Of a stretch of DNA of 64,000 nt, positions 2,463 through 32,531 are shown piece by piece (within the stretch, counting starts at the first letter, position 1; each line of letters starts with the position of its first letter). Origin of the DNA: Frigoriglobus tundricola. GTDB taxonomy: Bacteria; Planctomycetota; Planctomycetia; Gemmatales; Gemmataceae. Position numbers and translations under genes: made by a program. The notes under the pieces are model-generated. The model was not told the origin of the DNA and did no database searches. It saw only the letters and a list, made by a program, of their open reading frames with translations. The DNA is taken from contig NZ_CP053452.2 in NCBI RefSeq assembly GCF_013128195.2, positions 9,238,001 through 9,302,000 of the forward strand, written 5' to 3'.

Positions 2463-3145
2463 GGAAACCGAAAGTGCTGCTGTCGTGGAGTTCGGGCAAG
2501 GATTCGGCGTGGGCGTTGCACGTCCTGCGCCAGCGCGGTGAGGTCGAGGTGGTCGGTCTGGTGACGACCATCAACGAGGCGTTCGATCGCGTGGCGATGC
2601 ATGGGGTGCGGGCCGAACTGGTCGAAGCCCAGGCCCGCGCCGCCGAACTGCCGCTCTGGCGTGTTCCCCTGCCCTGGCCCTGCTCGAATGACGACTACGA
2701 AAACAGGATGCGGGCCTTGATCGAGACGGCCCGTGCAGCCGGTGTGACCGCGTTCGCGTTCGGCGACCTCTTTCTGGCTGACATCCGGGCGTACCGTGAG
2801 CGACAACTCGCTGGGACCGGCCTGGAACCATTGTTCCCGGTCTGGGGGACGCCGGACGACACTCCTTCTCTGGCCCGCGCGATGATCGGCGCGGGGTTCC
2901 GCGCAACGCTGGCGTGCGTCGATCCCCGTCAGTTGTCGCCGACGTTCGCCGGCCGCGAGTTCGACATGGACCTGCTTGCCGACCTACCGCCCGGCGTCGA
3001 TCCGTGCGGCGAGCGGGGCGAGTTTCACACCTTCTGCCACGTCGGTCCGATCTTCACCACTCCCGTCGAAGTGCGACGCGGCGACGTGGTCGAGCGGGAC
3101 GGGTTCTGGTTCGCAGACCTGCTTCCTGAGCCGGGATCGCACTGA
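2459..3145 (+). CDS. PP-loop ATP-binding protein, diphthine--ammonia ligase (Dph6) domain family
   Basis: A 228-residue adenine-nucleotide alpha-hydrolase-like protein. The PP-loop LLSWSSGKDS lies at about residues 6-15 and the family's C-terminal signature CGERGEFHTFCHVGP near residue 185. The start is a GTG at 2459 overlapping the stop of the B12-binding gene; a longer in-frame extension to 2255 lies wholly inside that gene and is rejected. In archaea and eukaryotes the domain amidates diphthine on EF2, but bacteria lack diphthamide, so the substrate here must differ. Its place in a B12-riboswitch operon suggests a role in corrinoid handling, for example ATP-dependent amidation of an incomplete corrinoid side chain; this is inference. 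Confidence 0.85.
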   Translation: MRKPKVLLSWSSGKDSAWALHVLRQRGEVEVVGLVTTINEAFDRVAMHGVRAELVEAQARAAELPLWRVPLPWPCSNDDYENRMRALIETARAAGVTAFAFGDLFLADIRAYRERQLAGTGLEPLFPVWGTPDDTPSLARAMIGAGFRATLACVDPRQLSPTFAGREFDMDLLADLPPGVDPCGERGEFHTFCHVGPIFTTPVEVRRGDVVERDGFWFADLLPEPGSH

Positions 3146-3249
3146 TGGCCGATCGATGGTCTTCCATCGATTCGCTCGGCGGTGGGGCGAACCAGAGCGA
3201 AACAATGATCGGGCCGCGGCACTGCGTCGCAGGAAGTGTACTCCTCCGC

Positions 3250-5040
3250 TCAGCAGTCCATAAACACTCGTAGTCGCGGCCCGAACCGACGGGCAAGCTC
3301 GGTCTGTATCTCCGACGAGCCCGAGCCGATCACCACATCGCGGAGTCGTGGAAAGGCTTGTCGATCGGCGAGGAGCAGCCAACTGCTTGCCTGATTGGAG
3401 CCCCCGGTCGATTCTCGATCCCATTCCGACCAGGTGTGAAGGCTGCGGAGGTTCCGAAGATACGGACTCGCGATCATCGCTTCCACACTCGCCCGCGACA
3501 GCTCATTGAATGCGAAATCGAGGTGCTGCAACCCGATTAGCGCCGGACACTCCGCGAGCGCGCTCACAGCCTCCGGCGAACGACAGATCCCCGACACCCG
3601 TAACCGGCCCAGGCGCGGGGTGAGGTGCGGTGAGTTGAACAACTGTACGGCCGCCCCAGGTGCGGTCGCGTTGAAGCTATCGTTCAGGCTGAGTTCGGTC
3701 AGGTGTTCGAGCCCCGGCCACGCCGCCAGCCGTTCCACCAGGTCCGTGTCCGGACTCAGCGACAGCGACCGCAGTTGAGGAAACCCCTCCAACGAGCGGT
3801 CGAACAGCGGAGCGCAGCTCTGGTGGTACAGGCCGATCGCCAGTTCACGGAGGTCGCCGAACCAGGCCGCGCCAACCAGTTCGTCCCAAAAGCCAGCGGC
3901 TGCCAGGTTGTAATATCCGGGGCTCTGGACGTGAAAAGCTGTGGGTTTGAGATGCGCCGAGCGAAAAAACGCCCGCCAGATGGGTCGATGGGTTTCCGGG
4001 TCGCGAACCCGATTGTCGTCCGAACCGACCAGCCTGATCCGCTCGAGCCGCCCCCACCCGGGATGGTCGATAACGCCGGTCAGGTGTCGGCCGTATGGGA
4101 TGGATAGATCCTGAAGCGCGGGGAGTACGTCGGGATTGAGCAGTTCCGAAAGTACCTCGGAACTCGATAGGTCGGTTGTAGGACCGCCGAACGAGAGGGT
4201 CCGCAGACGGCGGAAGCGGCGAGACCGTGTCAGATGGACCAGCGCTTCGGGAACGACATAGCACCCGTCGAACCGTAGAGACTGGAGTGCGGACGCGAAG
4301 GCGGCACCCGCGAGTTCGCTTAGCACCGGCTCCCAACTTCCACTGTGTCCGTGGTAGTCGTAGAGGTTCGAGAGGTCGAGGTGCTGGAGGCCCCGAAGGT
4401 GCCCGGCGACGCAGAACTTTTGCCACGTTTTCAGATCAATGTCGTCGCGACCGCTGCGCGTGCCACCGAACAGGCTCAGTTCCCGCAACCCCTTGAGTGC
4501 GGTAGCGCGGGCGAGTTCACTCAGCCAACTGTTCGTGTGGATCTGGCCGCCGAACATGGCCTCGGCCTGTTCGCCCGGTCTGCACCCCGCGGCGTCGATC
4601 GCGCGTAAGCAACGCGAATGCGGTTGGGTCAGGACATCCCGGACGGCCCCTGGTTCGAGGGACTCGCCGGCACCATCCACGAACGCAACCCGCCAGATCG
4701 GATGATCCCGGAACAGCGACTCGCCCGCCGCGCAGTACGGCTCGGGGCGAATCGCGACTTCATCGAGCATCCCCCGCCGGAACTCCCAGCGGACGAGCCG
4801 CTCCGACCACTCGCCGAGCCACTCGGCTTCGTGTTCAGCGAGCAATTGAAGCTGACGAACGTGAAGTTCGGGGTAACGAGCCGATGCCGGATCGAGCCGA
4901 GCAAGTTCGCACTGCACGCGCACGAATTCGCCCCGGGCGGACTCGCCGCTCTCGTCGTACCAGTCCGCAAGAACCAACCGCGGGGTGTCGTCCTCCGGGT
5001 GCTCCCGAATCGCCTCGATCAGCGCTTGACGGTCGGACAT
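3250..5040 (-). CDS. TIGR02996-domain protein with leucine-rich-like repeats
   Basis: A 596-residue protein. Its first ~45 residues carry the planctomycete repeat-companion domain (TIGR02996), seen as ALIEAIREHPEDDTPRLVL followed by ADWYDESGE and RGEFVRVQCELARL. The remainder holds degenerate leucine-rich repeats (LRELSLFGG, LQHLDLSNL, LRTLSFGG, LTELSLNDS, LQHLDFAFNELS). Such proteins are abundant in Gemmata, and their function is unknown, presumably protein-protein interaction. No signal peptide or membrane segment is seen, so it is probably cytoplasmic. The ATG at 5040 is chosen because the domain begins there; the 29-residue upstream extension is low-complexity. It stands alone, convergent with the B12 operon (about 100 bases between stops). 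Confidence 0.85.
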   Translation of the reverse strand: MSDRQALIEAIREHPEDDTPRLVLADWYDESGESARGEFVRVQCELARLDPASARYPELHVRQLQLLAEHEAEWLGEWSERLVRWEFRRGMLDEVAIRPEPYCAAGESLFRDHPIWRVAFVDGAGESLEPGAVRDVLTQPHSRCLRAIDAAGCRPGEQAEAMFGGQIHTNSWLSELARATALKGLRELSLFGGTRSGRDDIDLKTWQKFCVAGHLRGLQHLDLSNLYDYHGHSGSWEPVLSELAGAAFASALQSLRFDGCYVVPEALVHLTRSRRFRRLRTLSFGGPTTDLSSSEVLSELLNPDVLPALQDLSIPYGRHLTGVIDHPGWGRLERIRLVGSDDNRVRDPETHRPIWRAFFRSAHLKPTAFHVQSPGYYNLAAAGFWDELVGAAWFGDLRELAIGLYHQSCAPLFDRSLEGFPQLRSLSLSPDTDLVERLAAWPGLEHLTELSLNDSFNATAPGAAVQLFNSPHLTPRLGRLRVSGICRSPEAVSALAECPALIGLQHLDFAFNELSRASVEAMIASPYLRNLRSLHTWSEWDRESTGGSNQASSWLLLADRQAFPRLRDVVIGSGSSEIQTELARRFGPRLRVFMDC

Positions 5041-26938: not shown

Positions 26939-27110
26939 ATGGGCACGCAGACACAGCGCCAGGCGACGTTCGACGACCTGATGAAGACGGATGGGAAGGC
27001 CGAGCTCATCAACGGAAGGATCATGCCCATCATACCCAGCGGTTTCCTGCCCGGTCGCGTCGCGAAGCGCACCGGGTCGCGTCGCGAAGCGCATCCTATT
27101 CGCACTCGAT
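26939..27110 (+). pseudogene. 5' fragment of a Uma2-family gene, broken by a short tandem duplication
   Basis: AGGAGGG and an ATG start MGTQTQRQATFDDLMKTDGK and AELINGRIMPIIPSGFLPGR, the standard opening of Gemmata Uma2 (restriction-endonuclease-fold) proteins. At 27051-27093 a 21/22-base unit occurs twice in tandem and shifts the frame. Read from the second copy, the frame continues GRVAKRILFALDADA, as in intact relatives. After about 27110 the Uma2 sequence ends and the 3' end of the convergent DUF2063 gene begins, so the catalytic part is missing. Confidence 0.7.
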
Positions 27111-27120
27111 GCCGATGCGG

Positions 27121-27975
27121 TCACAGGTCGTCCGCGACGGCGTCGGGATCGTCGACAATGCCCAGGAAGAACCCCTGCGCGGCCCAGTTGCGGAACCATT
27201 CTCCGAGTTGCTGCTCCAAGCCCTCGTAGTTAGAGCCGCGCGCCACTTCCTCGATCGCGACGCCGAGAGCCTCCCCGCGCAGGAGCGCCGACAACAAAAC
27301 GTGGGCGGGCTTCGACAGTTCAAAGTGCCGGACCGCGAACCGCTGGCGCGTGATGGCGAGGAACGTCGCCGCCGGTTCCGGTAACGAGGCGTCTTCGTTC
27401 CGCTTCACGGCTGCGAAGTACCCGTGAACCGGGTACTTCAGTGCGAGGACACGGACGCACGGTGCCGGAATGAGGTGTGCGTCCGACAGGCGGTGGGGAG
27501 AAACGGCGGCGATCGCGGGCTCGTCGAGGGTTCGCTTCCCCTCGATACCCGGCCCGTCGAACACTTCGTTGAACGCGAGCTCCAGTTCCGCCAGGTCAAT
27601 CAGGAAGTCGGGCCACTCGGCTGCGCCGGCTTCGCCATTCGTTGCCGGGCGCGTGTCGCGGAGGAATTGCGGGAACCGGCTACCCAGGTCGAACAGCGTG
27701 TAACTCTGCGACGGGAACCGCTGGAGGTATTCGACCGCGAACGCGTCGAACACCTCATCCCCGAGCGCGACTTTGAGGACGGCGTATTCCTCCCGCAGGC
27801 AGTCGAGCAACCGCGCGAAGTAGGCGCGCCCGTACACGGCCAAGCGGTCCAGTGCCGGGAGCGCCTTCGAGCACGTGAGGACGGAAGCGGCCCCAACCGG
27901 ATCGAGTGCCTGCCACACGCCGTCCGGGTGCGTGATCGCGGCCTGGAACCAGTTCTGGAGAGAGTCGAGCCTCAT
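27121..27975 (-). CDS. bufC: DUF2063 (BufC-like) partner of the MNIO enzyme
   Basis: A 284-residue protein of the 'putative DNA-binding' DUF2063 family. It is recognised from the N-terminal LQNWFQAAITHPDGVW, AVYGRAYFARLLDCLREEYA, VALGDEVFDAFAVEYLQRFP and SQSYTLFDLGSRFPQFL segments and a C-terminal winged-helix-like part (HVLLSALLRGEALGVAIEEV). In bufferin and related RiPP systems this protein binds the precursor leader and delivers it to the DUF692 (MNIO) enzyme; DNA binding has not been the accepted role there. It is the last gene of the operon, starting 4 bases after the stop of the first Cys-rich precursor. Its 3' end abuts the Uma2 remnant. Confidence 0.9.
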   Translation of the reverse strand: MRLDSLQNWFQAAITHPDGVWQALDPVGAASVLTCSKALPALDRLAVYGRAYFARLLDCLREEYAVLKVALGDEVFDAFAVEYLQRFPSQSYTLFDLGSRFPQFLRDTRPATNGEAGAAEWPDFLIDLAELELAFNEVFDGPGIEGKRTLDEPAIAAVSPHRLSDAHLIPAPCVRVLALKYPVHGYFAAVKRNEDASLPEPAATFLAITRQRFAVRHFELSKPAHVLLSALLRGEALGVAIEEVARGSNYEGLEQQLGEWFRNWAAQGFFLGIVDDPDAVADDL

Positions 27976-27979
27976 GAGG

Positions 27980-28450
27980 TCAGCCCTTTTTCGCCGGTGC
28001 TGCGCCGAACTTCTTACCGGCGGCGGTCATAACTTCTTCGAATTTTTTGCGCGCCTTGGGCCACGTCTTGTCCGACAGTGGCACCTCGCAGGCGCCCTTG
28101 CCTTTACATTCGTTCTCGCCGGGGTGTTCCCCGCACCCGCCCTGACCCCGGCACGCGTTCTGGCCGTTACAGTCGTGGGCCGCGGCCGTTGCGCAGTGGC
28201 CCTGCCCGGCGCACTCGTTGGACGTTCCCGTCTTGCCCTTGTTCTTGCAGGTGTTGATCCCGCGGCAGATGTGCGGGTCCGAGAGGATCGAGTGCGCGGC
28301 CTTGTCAGCGGTGTGTGCGTCCTGGCCCGTGCCGGCACCGCCGCCCTCCGGGTTCGGCTTTGCGTTCTTTCCACAGCCGGCGGCAAGCCCACCCAGAGCA
28401 GCGAGCGCGAGCCGGGTGAGCTGCCGGCGGGTCAACTTCGGGTCGATCAT
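27980..28450 (-). CDS. Cys-rich bufferin-like precursor, Tat-type lipoprotein signal
   Basis: A 156-residue precursor. The N-terminus DPKLTRRQLTRLALAALGG combines a twin-arginine motif with a lipobox (GLAAGC, Cys26), predicting export and lipid anchoring. After a Gly/Lys linker comes a Cys-rich core of nine cysteines in C-x-G-type units ([55 protein letters not shown]). A charged C-terminal helix follows (TWPKARKKFEEVMTAAGKKF). Such cores are substrates of MNIO enzymes, which in bufferins turn Cys into thiooxazole-type metal ligands. A close relative is encoded at 30039-30491. It lies between the DoxX and DUF2063 genes (44 and 4 bases). Confidence 0.85.
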   Translation of the reverse strand: MIDPKLTRRQLTRLALAALGGLAAGCGKNAKPNPEGGGAGTGQDAHTADKAAHSILSDPHICRGINTCKNKGKTGTSNECAGQGHCATAAAHDCNGQNACRGQGGCGEHPGENECKGKGACEVPLSDKTWPKARKKFEEVMTAAGKKFGAAPAKKG

Positions 28451-28494
28451 AGTGTCCTCAGTGAGTAGATGGCTGCGGGAGCGGAGAGAGAGCT

Positions 28495-29001
28495 TCAGAC
28501 GGTCGCCCCCACATGAGCGGCGGTCCCTTCTTTGCGGTCGAGGAACCGGCCGACGACGTGGTCGAGTGAGAAGCGGCCCGGGCCACACACGAGGACCATC
28601 GCCGCGGTGAACAGGTACGCGAACGGTGGTGCCTTGAAGAAGATCGGGGTGTTGGTCCAGAACGCGGCCCACTGATCGGAGTGCGCGGTCATGTACGCCA
28701 CCAGCATCGTCCCGATGACCGGGAGCGGGGCGAGCCGCGACGCCAGCCCGAACGCCAGAAACAGTCCGCCGAAGAGTTCCGTGGCGCCGGCCATGTAAAC
28801 GTTCAGTTCCGGGAGCGGAATGTGCAGATCGCGGAAGTAGGTAGCCGTTTCATCGGGGTTCGCGAGCTTCCCCTGCCCGCTCAAAATCAGCTTGTAGCCG
28901 AAGTAAAGGCGGATCACGAGAAACAGTGCGTCGCGCAGTCGGTCGAGTAGGCCGATCAGCAGTTGGTAATAGCGGCGCGCGCGGTTCAGGTACGGGTGCA
29001 T
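28495..29001 (-). CDS. DoxX-family membrane protein
   Basis: A 168-residue protein with four membrane helices (DALFLVIRLYFGYKLILSG, MAGATELFGGLFLAFGLA, LAPLPVIGTMLVAYMTAHS and FAYLFTAAMVLVCGPG). The QGKLANPDETATYFRDLHIP loop is typical of DoxX proteins. DoxX genes commonly accompany DUF692/DUF2063 genes in bufferin-type loci, where a redox or metal-related membrane role is assumed but unproven. The start at 29001 (MHPYLNRARRYYQLL) is preferred: the in-frame extension upstream is the antisense-like Arg/Ser-rich shadow of the MNIO gene. It lies 22 bases after the MNIO stop. Confidence 0.9.
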   Translation of the reverse strand: MHPYLNRARRYYQLLIGLLDRLRDALFLVIRLYFGYKLILSGQGKLANPDETATYFRDLHIPLPELNVYMAGATELFGGLFLAFGLASRLAPLPVIGTMLVAYMTAHSDQWAAFWTNTPIFFKAPPFAYLFTAAMVLVCGPGRFSLDHVVGRFLDRKEGTAAHVGATV

Positions 29002-29023
29002 GGCGTCTCGGGTCCGTGTCGGA

Positions 29024-29977
29024 TCAGTAGGTGCCCGCCGGAGCGGACGACGCGCCGTCCACAGCGCCCCGGATGAACGAGATCGGGGTCGGGACGATCG
29101 AGCCATCGTGCGCGACCGGAGCGGTCGCGGACGGCCGGTGAACGGGGAGGCCCCCCCCCATGTACTCGCGGGCCTTGAGTACCTCCGCGTGGACCTCCGG
29201 GAACGGCGGGATCTTCGCGTCCCACTCCAGGAGCGTGGCCGCTCCGCCGGTGTGTTGGTGAGCGAGCCGGTACAGGTCCCACACGGGGTCCACAACCGGT
29301 CCGTCGTGGGTATCAACGATGTGCGTCCCGCAGTGCGTGTGCCCGGCCAAGTGGAACTGCACGACCCGGTCGCGGGGCACGTTCCGGATGTACTCGGCCG
29401 GGTCGTAGTCGTGGTTCACGGCCGACACGTACACGTTGTTTACGTCGAGCAACAGGCCGCAGCCGGTTTCGTCCGCGAGCCGCGCGAGGAACTCCCATTC
29501 GGGCATCGTCGAGGCCGTGAACCCGACGTAGGTGCTCGGATTCTCCAGCACCAGAGGGCGTTCGAGGAAGTCCTGAACGGTCCGCACGCGACCAGCGACG
29601 TGCTTGAGCGATCCCTCGTTCAGCGGCAGCGGCAGCAGGTCGTGGGTGTTCCGGCCGGCGACCCCGGTCCAGCACAGGTGGTCGGACACCCACCGCGCGT
29701 TGACAGCGCGGGCGAGTCGGCGGAGCCGGCCGAGGTACTCGAAGCTGAGCGGGTCCGTGCTGCCCACCGACAGCGATACCCCGTGCATGACGATCGGGTA
29801 GCGCTCGGCGATCTGATCGAGGACGTAGCGCGGGCGCCCGCCGGAGTCCATGAAGTTCTCGGAAATGATCTCGAACCAATCGACCGCGGGCTTCTGCGCC
29901 AGGATGTGCGGGAAGTGCGTCGTGCGCAATCCGATGCCGAGGCCGAGGTTGGGGTGACCGAGTCGCGAGAGTGACAT
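29024..29977 (-). CDS. bufB: MNIO (DUF692) RiPP-modifying iron oxygenase, BufB-like
   Basis: A 317-residue TIM-barrel protein. Family motifs are [116 protein letters not shown] and [16 protein letters not shown]. The His, Asp and Glu residues in HG, SDH, EN, DVNN and HLAGH are the known ligands of the two- or three-iron centre. MNIO enzymes oxidise cysteine (or Asp/Asn) residues of RiPP precursors, for example oxazolone-thioamide in methanobactin and thiooxazole in bufferins. Flanking Cys-rich precursors and a DUF2063 partner fit the bufferin type. Confidence 0.95.
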
Positions 29978-30038
29978 GGGAACTCCGATCTGAGGCGCGC
30001 CCGGCGGGTCGTTCTCCCACCGGGTCGAGAAATCGCAG

Positions 30039-30491
30039 TCACTTCTTGGGCTTGTCTGGGGCGTCGCCGAACTTCTTGTCGGCCTTCTTCATGGCCGCCT
30101 CGAAGTTCTTGCGGGCGATCGCCCACGGCTTGTCGGCGAGCGGGACGGCGCACTCGCCCATACCCTTGCACTTGTTCTCGCCCGGGTGCTCCCCGCACCC
30201 GCCCTCGCCGGCGCACTCGTTCATCCCCTTGCACTTGTGCGCCTTCACGGTGCCGCACATCGACTGCCCGGCGCAGTCGTTTTTCTTCCCGCCGACCTCG
30301 CCCTTACACGACGGGTTCAGCCCGCGGCAGATGTGCGGCTCCTGGAGCCACGGGAAGCCGTCCTTTTTCGGGTCCTTGTGCTCGGGCTTCTTGTCGTCGG
30401 CGAGGGTGGCGTTCGCCCCGGCCAACAGCCCACCCACTGCCGCCGCGGTCAGCTGTGTGAACCGCCGCCGGCTCATCCCGTTGGTATCCAT
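30039..30491 (-). CDS. Cys-rich bufferin-like precursor, Tat signal
   Basis: A 150-residue precursor, the first gene of the operon. Its N-terminus [20 protein letters not shown], followed by ANATLA, is a twin-arginine signal with a signal-peptidase-I-like end and no lipobox, unlike its paralogue at 27980-28450. The core has nine cysteines ([59 protein letters not shown]). A Lys-rich C-terminal helix follows ([20 protein letters not shown]). The stretch from GCGEHPGEN to the DK.W end is nearly the same in both precursors. An internal ATG at 30476 (MSRRRF) is an alternative start. The MNIO gene follows after 61 bases. Confidence 0.85.
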
Positions 30492-30607: not shown

Positions 30608-31717
30608 CTAACGGCCGGATAACGGTTCGGTAACGATTGGGTAAAGATCGGCACCGCTGGGAACAGAGAACCAGATCCGAGTTTCCCCGTCCGAGCTCTC
30701 CGCCCCGACGCGGCCGCCGTGCGCTTCGACCAGCTCTTTCACGATCGCCAGCCCGATCCCGACCCCGCCGTGCTCGCGTGAGCGGGATTTCTCGGCTCGG
30801 AAGAACCGCTCGAACAGGAACGGCAGGTCTTCGGGCGCGACACCCCCGCCGTCGTTGGCGACCGTCACCCGACAGCCGCCGGCATCCGACTCGATGGTCA
30901 GTCGAACGGTACCGCCGACCGGGGAGTACTGGAGGGCGTTCTCGATCAGGTTGGCGAACACTTGGGTGAGCTTCTCCGGGTCCGCCTGTACGAGCCCGGC
31001 ACCGGCGCCGTAGGCGGTCCGGACCGTCAGCGGTTTCGCTTCGAGGCGGACGCTGAACAGCGAAATCGCTTCCGTTGCCAGCACACGTAGATCGACCGGT
31101 TGGAGCCGAAGGGTTCGACGGGCCGCGTCGGCTTGGGCCAGCTTCAACAGGTCCTCCGAAAGTGCGATCAGTCTCATCACCTCGTCTTGGAGGGACCGGA
31201 AGGTCGCCAACGACGGCGGCATCACGCCGTCGACGAGCGCTTCGAGATACCCGCGGACGTTGGTGAGCGGCGTGCGGAGCTCGTGAGCCAAGTTGAGCAC
31301 GGTGGTGCGGCGCACCACCTGAAGTTGCTGGAGCCGGTCGGCCATCTCGTTGAACGCGGCGGCCAGCCCGGCGACCTCGCCGCCCCCTCGCTCTTGGGCC
31401 CGCAACCCGTGGTCGCCCTCCGCGAACGCCCGCGCGACAACGGCCATCCGCCGCAGCGGGCGCAGTACGGTTCGCGTGGCCGCGTAGCCGACGACCCCGG
31501 CCACGACGACCGCGATCAGCGTCGCCCACACGAAGCACCGGCGGATCGTATCAAGGAACATTTGATGGGCGTCGTCCGGGGCGACGTGGTACTCGTCCAT
31601 CAGCCGCGCGAAGTAGACCGCCGCGAAGTGTTCGAGGGCGATCCAGGTGACCGACGCCACTAGGGCGATGGTCAGCAAGTTGACCGCGAGCAACCTCCAG
31701 AAGAGCGAAAAGCGCAT
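30608..31717 (-). CDS. sensor histidine kinase of an OmpR/PhoB-type pair
   Basis: A 369-residue kinase. It has a membrane helix at about 8-28, a short outer loop of about 35 residues, a second helix at 63-80, then a HAMP domain (LRPLRRMAVVARAFAEGD). The phosphoacceptor helix follows, with His145 in NLAHELRTPLTNVRGYLEAL. The ATPase domain has N (NLIENALQYSP), G1 (DGGGVAPEDLPFLFERFFR) and G2 (GGVGIGLAIVKELVEAHGG) boxes. It lies 13 bases after the response regulator stop, so the two are co-transcribed. The bufferin operon starts 116 bases further on in the same direction. The small periplasmic loop is like BaeS/CusS-type stress or metal sensors, which suggests but does not show a metal signal. 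Confidence 0.93.
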   Translation of the reverse strand: MRFSLFWRLLAVNLLTIALVASVTWIALEHFAAVYFARLMDEYHVAPDDAHQMFLDTIRRCFVWATLIAVVVAGVVGYAATRTVLRPLRRMAVVARAFAEGDHGLRAQERGGGEVAGLAAAFNEMADRLQQLQVVRRTTVLNLAHELRTPLTNVRGYLEALVDGVMPPSLATFRSLQDEVMRLIALSEDLLKLAQADAARRTLRLQPVDLRVLATEAISLFSVRLEAKPLTVRTAYGAGAGLVQADPEKLTQVFANLIENALQYSPVGGTVRLTIESDAGGCRVTVANDGGGVAPEDLPFLFERFFRAEKSRSREHGGVGIGLAIVKELVEAHGGRVGAESSDGETRIWFSVPSGADLYPIVTEPLSGR

Positions 31718-31730
31718 CGGGGCACCGACG

Positions 31731-32441
31731 TCAGGTTGCGGCCGCTTCGGCCAACTGATAACCCATCCCCCGCACGGTCAAGATGATGGACGGCCGAACC
31801 GGGTCGTCGCCGATCTTCTGCCGCAACTTGCCGACGTGGACATCCACGACGCGATCGACCACCGCCTCGCCATCCGGGTAGAGGGCGGTCAGCAGTTCGG
31901 TCCGCTCGAACACCCGGCCCGGAGAGGACATGAGCGTCTTGAGGAGGCAGTATTCCGACGGGGTGAGGGCCAGGCGGCGGTTGTTGAGGGTGGCGACCCG
32001 TTTTTCCAGATCGAGAACCAACCCGCCGTGGCTGAGTCGGGTCTTGGAGGCGAGCGGCTGTGAACGGGTTCGGCGGAGGATCGCCTTGACCCGCGCGACG
32101 AGTTCGCGGGGGCTGAACGGCTTCATCACGTAATCGTCGGCTCCGAGTGTGAACCCGAGGATCCGGTCGAGTTCCTCTTGCCGGGCGCTCAAGATCACGA
32201 TCGGCACGTCAGAATCCCGACGCAGCGTCTGACAGACTTCCCACCCGTCCGCGCCGGGGAGCATGAGGTCCAAGATCACCAACAACGGGGTTTCGCTACG
32301 CGCCATGTCCAGCGCTTCACGCCCGTCGTGCGAGAGCCGGGTGCGGAACCCTTCCCGCTCCAGGTACGCAGCGACCAACGTGCCGGTCTTCTGATCATCC
32401 TCGGCGATCAGGACCGGCGCACCCCGCTTTACCCATTCCAT
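31731..32441 (-). CDS. OmpR/PhoB-family response regulator
   Basis: A 236-residue regulator. Its receiver domain (1-120) has the acidic pocket EDD (14-16), phosphoacceptor Asp58 (VILDLMLPGADG), the Thr/Ser position in IVILSARQ and Lys in VMKPFSPRELVARV. The C-terminal winged helix (about 135-232) is the OmpR type, with LTPSEYCLLKTLMSSPGRVF, RVVDVHVGKLRQKIGDDP and ILTVRGMGYQLAE. The start at 32441 has GGAGGAGG upstream; a longer in-frame extension to 32510 is weak. It is the first gene of the two-component pair and is upstream of the bufferin-like operon. Confidence 0.94.
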   Translation of the reverse strand: MEWVKRGAPVLIAEDDQKTGTLVAAYLEREGFRTRLSHDGREALDMARSETPLLVILDLMLPGADGWEVCQTLRRDSDVPIVILSARQEELDRILGFTLGADDYVMKPFSPRELVARVKAILRRTRSQPLASKTRLSHGGLVLDLEKRVATLNNRRLALTPSEYCLLKTLMSSPGRVFERTELLTALYPDGEAVVDRVVDVHVGKLRQKIGDDPVRPSIILTVRGMGYQLAEAAAT

Positions 32442-32531
32442 CCGGGCCTCCTCCTTCGAACCTTGAGTAATGGGGGCCGATGATGCTTTGTCGATCCGCC
32501 GAGCGGTCAATTACACACAACACGCGGATTA

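Follow-up and report, generated by a model that had tools for sequence, protein, structure and literature searches.

Here, we describe a five-gene operon on the minus strand of a 64,000-nucleotide stretch of the genome of the planctomycete Frigoriglobus tundricola (contig NZ_CP053452.2, positions 9,238,001 to 9,302,000; the whole stretch is referred to as “the window”). The operon encodes two cysteine-rich precursor proteins, a maturase of the MNIO family, a membrane protein of the DoxX family, and a partner protein with a DUF2063 signature and a RiPP recognition element (RRE; RiPP, ribosomally synthesized and post-translationally modified peptide). Judged from its sequence, the operon is quite likely to be of the captophorin type, i.e., to make a thiooxazole metallophore, with both precursors exported by the twin-arginine translocation (Tat) pathway. 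We assign it to the captophorins because the MNIO scores above the BufB cut-off, the fold of the partner protein resembles TglHI chain A and 3dee, and the pattern is family-wide; MNIO-PME1 clusters, grouped as captophorins, are reported to install 5-thiooxazoles (PMC13097082; this and the other papers cited below are drawn on in part). We assign its precursors to Tat because their relatives have a near-invariant RRxF motif, fitting glycine positions, a weakly hydrophobic h-region (the hydrophobic part of the leader), and matches to Tat profiles, and because the genome encodes TatC. Within these assignments, we infer the thiooxazole chemistry, the copper binding, and the Tat export of the precursors. 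A first-pass annotation of this DNA had proposed a planctomycete operon of the bufferin type with MNIO, DUF2063, and DoxX genes, which is right at the level of the system, although the precursors fail the curated bufferin-precursor cut-off. The twin-arginine leaders are the main feature that this annotation missed, along with the pairing of a soluble with an anchored precursor and a two-component system upstream.

The modification enzymes are readily recognized. The MNIO scores 360.3 bits against the NCBIfam BufB model NF050167 (cut-off, 310) and 363.6 bits against Pfam PF05114. It is homologous (alignable) to PDB 3bww, TglH, and MbnB, and its conserved His/Asp/Glu/Asn set is intact, these residues being common to 75–76 of 76 relatives. 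The partner protein matches Pfam DUF2063 with 71.6 bits (cut-off, 27.2) and reaches 20.1 bits against NGO1945_C, below the cut-off of 27. Its AlphaFold2 model has a predicted local distance difference test score (pLDDT) of 92, and Foldseek with this model found 8hci_A of TglHI (E 1.1e-5) and 3dee (E 3.0e-5), as well as, more weakly, TbiB1, an RRE that binds a lasso-peptide leader (E 0.21, probability 0.99). Chain A of 8hci is presumably TglI, since chain D is the MNIO. Unlike the fold search, a phmmer search of the partner protein against the PDB gave no match. The DoxX protein matches Pfam DoxX (76.2 bits; cut-off, 23.6) and, at 73.2 bits, lies just below the cut-off of 80 for NCBIfam HvfX.

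Each precursor has nine core cysteines, as the first-pass annotation had claimed, with nearly identical spacing: 6-10-5-7-5-5-8-5 in precursor 1 and 5-11-5-7-5-5-8-5 in precursor 2, which has a tenth cysteine in its leader. The C-x-G units reported for these cores are present, but take in only six of the nine core cysteines in precursor 1 and five of nine in precursor 2. A GCGEHPGEN block is indeed shared by both precursors; rather than being unusual, it is the local form of a family-wide GCGxxPGENxC consensus. The precursors also differ from the DUF2282 type, as proposed: no Pfam family scores above its cut-off in either of them, and DUF2282 appears neither there nor among the 18 families listed for 88 family members. 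EGKCG repeats are absent from both, and a profile built from ten precursors found no match in the PDB. A search against bufferin families, suggested as a check in the same annotation, found similarity to BufA2 below the curated cut-off, which makes the precursors distant relatives of Buf2 (BufA2). The BufA2 model finds all 88 aligned family members at E up to 1, and the members scored one by one fall below the cut-off of 60 bits. The best match has E 7.5e-13 and should also be below 60 bits, because a score of 46.2 bits went with E 3.8e-12 and one of 67.3 bits with 1e-18. In the alignment of the 88 members, the arginine pair and seven of the nine core cysteine columns are invariant, and C86 is nearly so. 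Nine core cysteines were counted in 66 of 87 family precursors; most other counts reflect misplaced core starts, and genuine counts of 8, 10, and 11 occur too.

Relatives of the precursors are found in many Planctomycetota and in some Verrucomicrobiota. A scan of genome contigs with ten precursors found 282 stretches with a relative; the best 80 of these 282, which were analysed, comprise 69 planctomycete and 8 verrucomicrobial stretches and 3 named only as “bacterium”. Five further stretches duplicate five of these, leaving 80 distinct annotated loci, of which 56 have an MNIO gene, 49 of them with a DUF2063 gene as well; a DoxX gene is found in three, all Gemmataceae. The Cys-rich precursor gene stands directly before the MNIO gene in the window, and an MNIO gene lies within 400 bases behind 55 of the 87 precursors. 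Co-occurrence is exact at the genome level: among 95 genomes of the window's taxonomic family, the Gemmataceae, five have a precursor, and the same five are those with an MNIO of over 360 bits, while the MNIOs of 12 others reach 272 bits at most. The operon pattern is therefore more than chance, given that the family recurs, that MNIO and DUF2063 genes accompany the precursor, and that this co-occurrence holds without exception. MNIOs of 262–272 bits were seen in seven other genomes of the taxonomic family; these are held by loci L203–L209, one at 230. Of 392 Planctomycetota genomes, 63 have a match: 28 score at least 142 bits, one 112, and the others at most 81. The lower-scoring matches include 18 stretches with 12-Cys-like proteins (L109–L126), eight of which have RRxF leaders (L111, L113, L114, L116, L117, L118, L124, and L125), the rest being Sec-like or unclear.

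The leaders of the family have a strong bias toward features of Tat signals. In the window the motif is SRRRF in precursor 1 and TRRQL in precursor 2, and by motif and glycine position neither leader is of Sec type. The arginine pair is found in 86 of 87 family precursors, mostly as N/S-R-R-D-F, the 87th being a broken frame, and phenylalanine follows at +3 in 80 of the 86. Counting from the first arginine in 75 leaders selected by length and hydrophobicity, Gly-Gly stands at +12/+13 in 70, Ala-Ala at +9/+10 in 72, and Ala-Gly at +16/+17 in 54. The corresponding counts in 15 other open reading frames (ORFs) of the same loci that start with an arginine pair are 1, 0, and 0, a weak control in that most of these do not look like Tat substrates. 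The Tat consensus is S-R-R-x-F-L-K, with helix-breaking residues 12–17 after the arginines (PMC7317946), so the glycine positions fit Tat. Hydrophobicity of the h-region averages 1.65 (standard deviation, 0.20; n = 85) in the 9-Cys family and ranges from 1.91 to 2.45 in five Sec-type 12-Cys relatives; locus L112 was left out of this comparison and of the scoring of 12-Cys proteins. Tat-signal profiles match a fraction of the 88 members at E up to 1: TAT_signal (NCBI) 21, formate_TAT 20, and the Rieske Tat profile (Pfam) 29. The genome encodes TatC (178.1 bits; cut-off, 25.1). Taken together, these sequences form a real, conserved family of 9-Cys, probably Tat-exported captophorins.

Several observations weigh against this assignment. 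Against the NCBIfam BufA2 model NF050166, the two precursors score 18.3 and 25.4 bits, below the cut-off of 60. An AlphaFold2 model of the core, with 71 relatives, reached a pLDDT of 60 and gave no confident core fold, so that a folded Tat cargo is hypothetical. The window's own Tat profile matches are weak, precursor 1 matching formate_TAT alone (E 0.068) and precursor 2 no profile, and six Tat-type 12-Cys leaders (1.57–2.20) overlap the Sec-type leaders in hydrophobicity. The arginine pair could serve leader recognition instead of Tat. As for copper, no named copper gene was recognized adjoining the operon. Gene clustering around the 80 distinct loci, tried as a source of copper context, gave no copper gene either: the recurrent neighbors, named by eye, are mostly housekeeping-like (DUF547, flagellar, methionine-synthase, and similar genes).

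If the captophorin and Tat assignments are correct, the DUF2063-RRE protein would bind the leader and activate the MNIO, which would turn some of the core cysteines into 5-thiooxazoles in the cytoplasm. The modified core would then fold, perhaps with metal, and be exported in folded form via TatC. The product of precursor 1 would be soluble in the periplasm and that of precursor 2 anchored to the membrane as a lipoprotein, both binding surplus Cu(I) or a comparable soft metal under the control of the adjacent two-component system. Tat transports folded proteins (PMC7317946), so maturation would have to finish before export. By analogy, the Tat leader should double as the RRE leader, and its extreme conservation would then be explained. 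Tat proofreading chaperones exist, and a further, doubtful possibility is that the RRE partner is one of them, holding the leader during MNIO action such that only matured, folded (perhaps metal-loaded) precursor reaches TatC. If so, a RiPP pathway would here use the Tat leader as its RRE leader and couple modification to the export of a soluble and a membrane-anchored metal buffer.

The leaders could also belong to an ordinary Sec-exported, Buf2-like bufferin, with the arginine pair merely contributing to a leader element that the RRE partner recognizes. The Sec signal peptide of oxazolin acts as its leader, and the same is cited for bufferin (PMC13419390). Moreover, the leaders of the 9-Cys family are conserved beyond what is usual for a signal peptide (Ala-Ala in 72 of 75, Gly-Gly in 70 of 75), as a recognition element would be. 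However, among 12-Cys planctomycete relatives with MNIOs of a single tree group, RRxF is present in some (8 of 18 stretches) and absent from others, so the pair is unneeded for that recognition, and the motif and glycine positions fit Tat; we judge a Sec-exported bufferin to be improbable. It is more improbable still that the precursors are unmodified or differently modified Cys-rich metal-binding proteins, such as a periplasmic metallothionein-like store, and that the MNIO acts on something else. In favor of this reading, 24 of the 80 distinct loci have no MNIO on the stretch, although some of these stretches stop close to a contig end. Yet 23 of the 24 genomes concerned encode an MNIO elsewhere, which fits maturation in trans, and both the genome-level co-occurrence of precursor and MNIO in the window's taxonomic family and the conserved order precursor–MNIO–DUF2063 argue against an unrelated role.

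The metal is a separate matter. The system may serve another soft metal, or oxidative or envelope stress, and not copper; we regard this as a minority possibility. Consistent with it, no copper gene was recognized alongside the operon, the two-component system is generic, and in Microbulbifer the peptides of a captophorin were not detected under added copper (PMC12538549). On the other side, bufferin, oxazolin, fontiphorin, and bulbicupramide are all described as copper-binding (PMC12452194, PMC13097082, PMC13419390, PMC12538549).

Returning to the captophorin assignment, the two precursors of the window differ in their leaders: precursor 1 is of a soluble type and precursor 2 has a lipobox-like cysteine (Table 1). 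Lipidated bufferins are already known (PMC12452194; PMC12636315). The layout precursor 1–MNIO–DoxX–precursor 2–DUF2063 occurs in five genomes, four from the Gemmataceae and one (G415, locus L128) from another family of the same class. All five operons pair a soluble first precursor with an anchored second one, the anchor being a lipobox-like cysteine four times and a fusion to DoxX once. In this last case (L015 1749-2816, on the same contig as L047), one reading frame encodes DoxX followed by the second 9-Cys precursor with its twin-arginine segment, a fusion that physically ties the uncharacterized DoxX protein to a precursor. More broadly, eight of nine tandem loci examined combine one soluble with one anchored precursor; the ninth, L078, has two with lipobox-like cysteines. 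This exceeds chance only mildly (about 0.02 by our own reckoning), because 45 of 85 precursors carry a lipobox-like cysteine. The five DoxX operons may in addition share one origin.

Table 1. Genes of the operon and of the two-component system upstream of it (positions in the window).
Feature	Position	Strand	Description
Precursor 1	30039..30491	minus	150 aa; Tat-type leader without Cys (soluble type); 9-Cys core; conserved C-terminal segment
MNIO / BufB maturase	29024..29977	minus	317 aa; NCBIfam NF050167 and Pfam PF05114 matches
DoxX / HvfX-like membrane protein	28495..29001	minus	168 aa; Pfam DoxX match
Precursor 2	27980..28450	minus	156 aa; Tat-type leader MIDPKLTRRQLTRLALAALGGLAAGC; lipobox-like AAGC (Cys26); 9-Cys core
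DUF2063-RRE partner protein (PME-type 1)	27121..27975	minus	284 aa; Pfam DUF2063 match
Sensor histidine kinase	30608..31717	minus	BaeS/CopS-like by profile, below those cut-offs
OmpR-type response regulator	31731..32441	minus	ATG start at 32441; upstream TTG at 32510 also possible

The five same-strand genes at 27121–30491 that had been annotated in this order with short gaps are all present, separated by 61, 22, 44, and 4 bases from precursor 1 to the DUF2063 gene. The unit is larger than claimed, with a two-component system directly upstream: the kinase gene lies 116 bases from precursor 1 and the response regulator gene 13 bases before the kinase. Since both share the orientation of the operon with short gaps, the regulated unit may run from the response regulator through the kinase, precursor 1, MNIO, DoxX, and precursor 2 to the DUF2063 gene. 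Kinase and response regulator score below the CopS and CopR cut-offs, no metal site is readable in the sensor loop of the kinase, and one relative locus (L014) has a conserved kinase in the same position. In L128, a regulator that is Crp/Fnr-like by eye (3139–3837) stands before the five-gene operon, replacing the two-component system. Seven loci have a thioredoxin-like gene near the precursor (L036, L046, L048, L049, L067, L029, and L060); that of L049, the one tested, also has a YHS domain. A promoter and terminator scan of the operon gave nothing convincing, and in a search for a mobile origin precursor 2 had no match in plasmids and precursor 1 none in phages. Just past the operon, at 26939–27100 of the window, lies an apparent truncated gene that starts MGTQTQRQATFDDLMKTDGKAELINGRIMPIIPSG and has a directly repeated GGTCGCGTCGCGAAGCGCA stretch; we take it to be perhaps Uma2-like.

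The 12-Cys relatives bear on the origin of the family. Scores against the BufA2 model fall from 105.6 bits for a 6-Cys proteobacterial protein (L133) to 67.3 for a Sec-type 12-Cys protein (L120), 43–46 for two Tat-type 12-Cys proteins, 31.7 for L118, and 18–28 for four 9-Cys proteins. L118 and L127, which have 11 core cysteines and an arginine-pair leader, and whose first unit is complete while the second already has the 9-Cys form, look intermediate between the 12-Cys and 9-Cys types. The 9-Cys family looks like a shortened two-unit Buf2, a direction of change that we infer. Trees of the MNIO enzymes agree with this picture in part.

An MNIO phylogeny, proposed with the first-pass annotation as a check, supports a main 12-Cys group and does not recover the 9-Cys enzymes as a single clade. 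A quick tree of 79 rows has a branch (Shimodaira–Hasegawa-like approximate likelihood ratio test, 95) that sets the 12-Cys, Buf1, and 6-Cys Buf2 enzymes apart on one side, with three enzymes from genomes with stand-alone precursors among them. Two more careful trees were built. With 72 rows, the 9-Cys label needs five changes; a Pseudoalteromonas row forms a long branch and joined other long rows in this tree. With 41 rows, the main 12-Cys group has support of 100/100, three 12-Cys rows stand elsewhere (93/95), and the 9-Cys enzymes are not resolved as one clade. A separate ancestry is suggested.

Other MNIO loci gave further observations. The Pseudoalteromonas sp. NC201 plasmid (L132 103-2430) has, directly before its MNIO gene, a 775-aa ORF that combines a Ferritin-like domain (Pfam, 66.6 bits) with an embedded bufferin-like core (HSCKGSNDCKAQGGCG...NKCNNLGGCAVPI) and that the BufA2 model does not match at E up to 0.1; it may be a large substrate of the MNIO. 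Short ORFs with RCCRCCRCCRC-type tails lie upstream of divergent MNIOs in L164, L166, and L167 (genomes G503, G509, and G505), and are putatively another type of precursor. On an Aminobacter plasmid (L135 2091-5456), a Buf1 operon is followed, per the record annotation, by GDCCVxC and YHS (seleno)protein genes.

Among known systems, the Buf2/BufA2 bufferins (NF050166; Buf_6/12Cys of Antoine et al. 2025) share Cys-Lys-Gly style repeats with NxCKGQGGC blocks, a BufB-type MNIO, a DUF2063-RRE partner, and DoxX, and about 16% of Buf2 members have lipoprotein signals (PMC12452194). They differ in having 6 or 12 cysteines instead of nine core cysteines and a Sec instead of a Tat-type leader, and in lacking the conserved C-terminal segment (W..AR..FE..M) of the window's family. 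The 12-Cys planctomycete proteins have the same two-unit core, with an adjoining MNIO in most and RRxF in 8 of 18, but their two units are full 6-Cys units. Buf1 bufferins have the same set of MNIO, DUF2063, and DoxX, with four cysteines, a Sec leader, and the DUF2282 signature that is missing here. Oxazolin, fontiphorin, and the EGKCG captophorins share the gene set and an HvfX-type DoxX (here just below the HvfX cut-off), and differ in their EGKCG repeat. Adjamnio-I (Antoine et al. 2025, Table 2) is comparable in having 8 to 21 cysteines in 122–293 aa without a predicted signal peptide; its PME-type 2 partners, as opposed to the DUF2063-signature partner here, set it apart by description, although overlap is possible (PMC12452194). 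That study of the MNIO-substrate landscape describes Sec signals and made one a condition for entry into its main set; its main text, as far as available, mentions no Tat signal, planctomycetes, or verrucomicrobia, and its supplements or figures might list the family under another name. Among literature joining MNIO, bufferin, RiPP, or metallophore with Tat, no title describes such a family, going by titles and abstract openings.

The 9-Cys family would extend the captophorins across Planctomycetota and Verrucomicrobiota and suggests soluble-plus-anchored pairs. Sec carries unfolded chains, and the described bufferin and oxazolin precursors use Sec. Because a large sister family has Tat-type leaders, it becomes testable whether a thiooxazole metal buffer must fold or load its metal before export.

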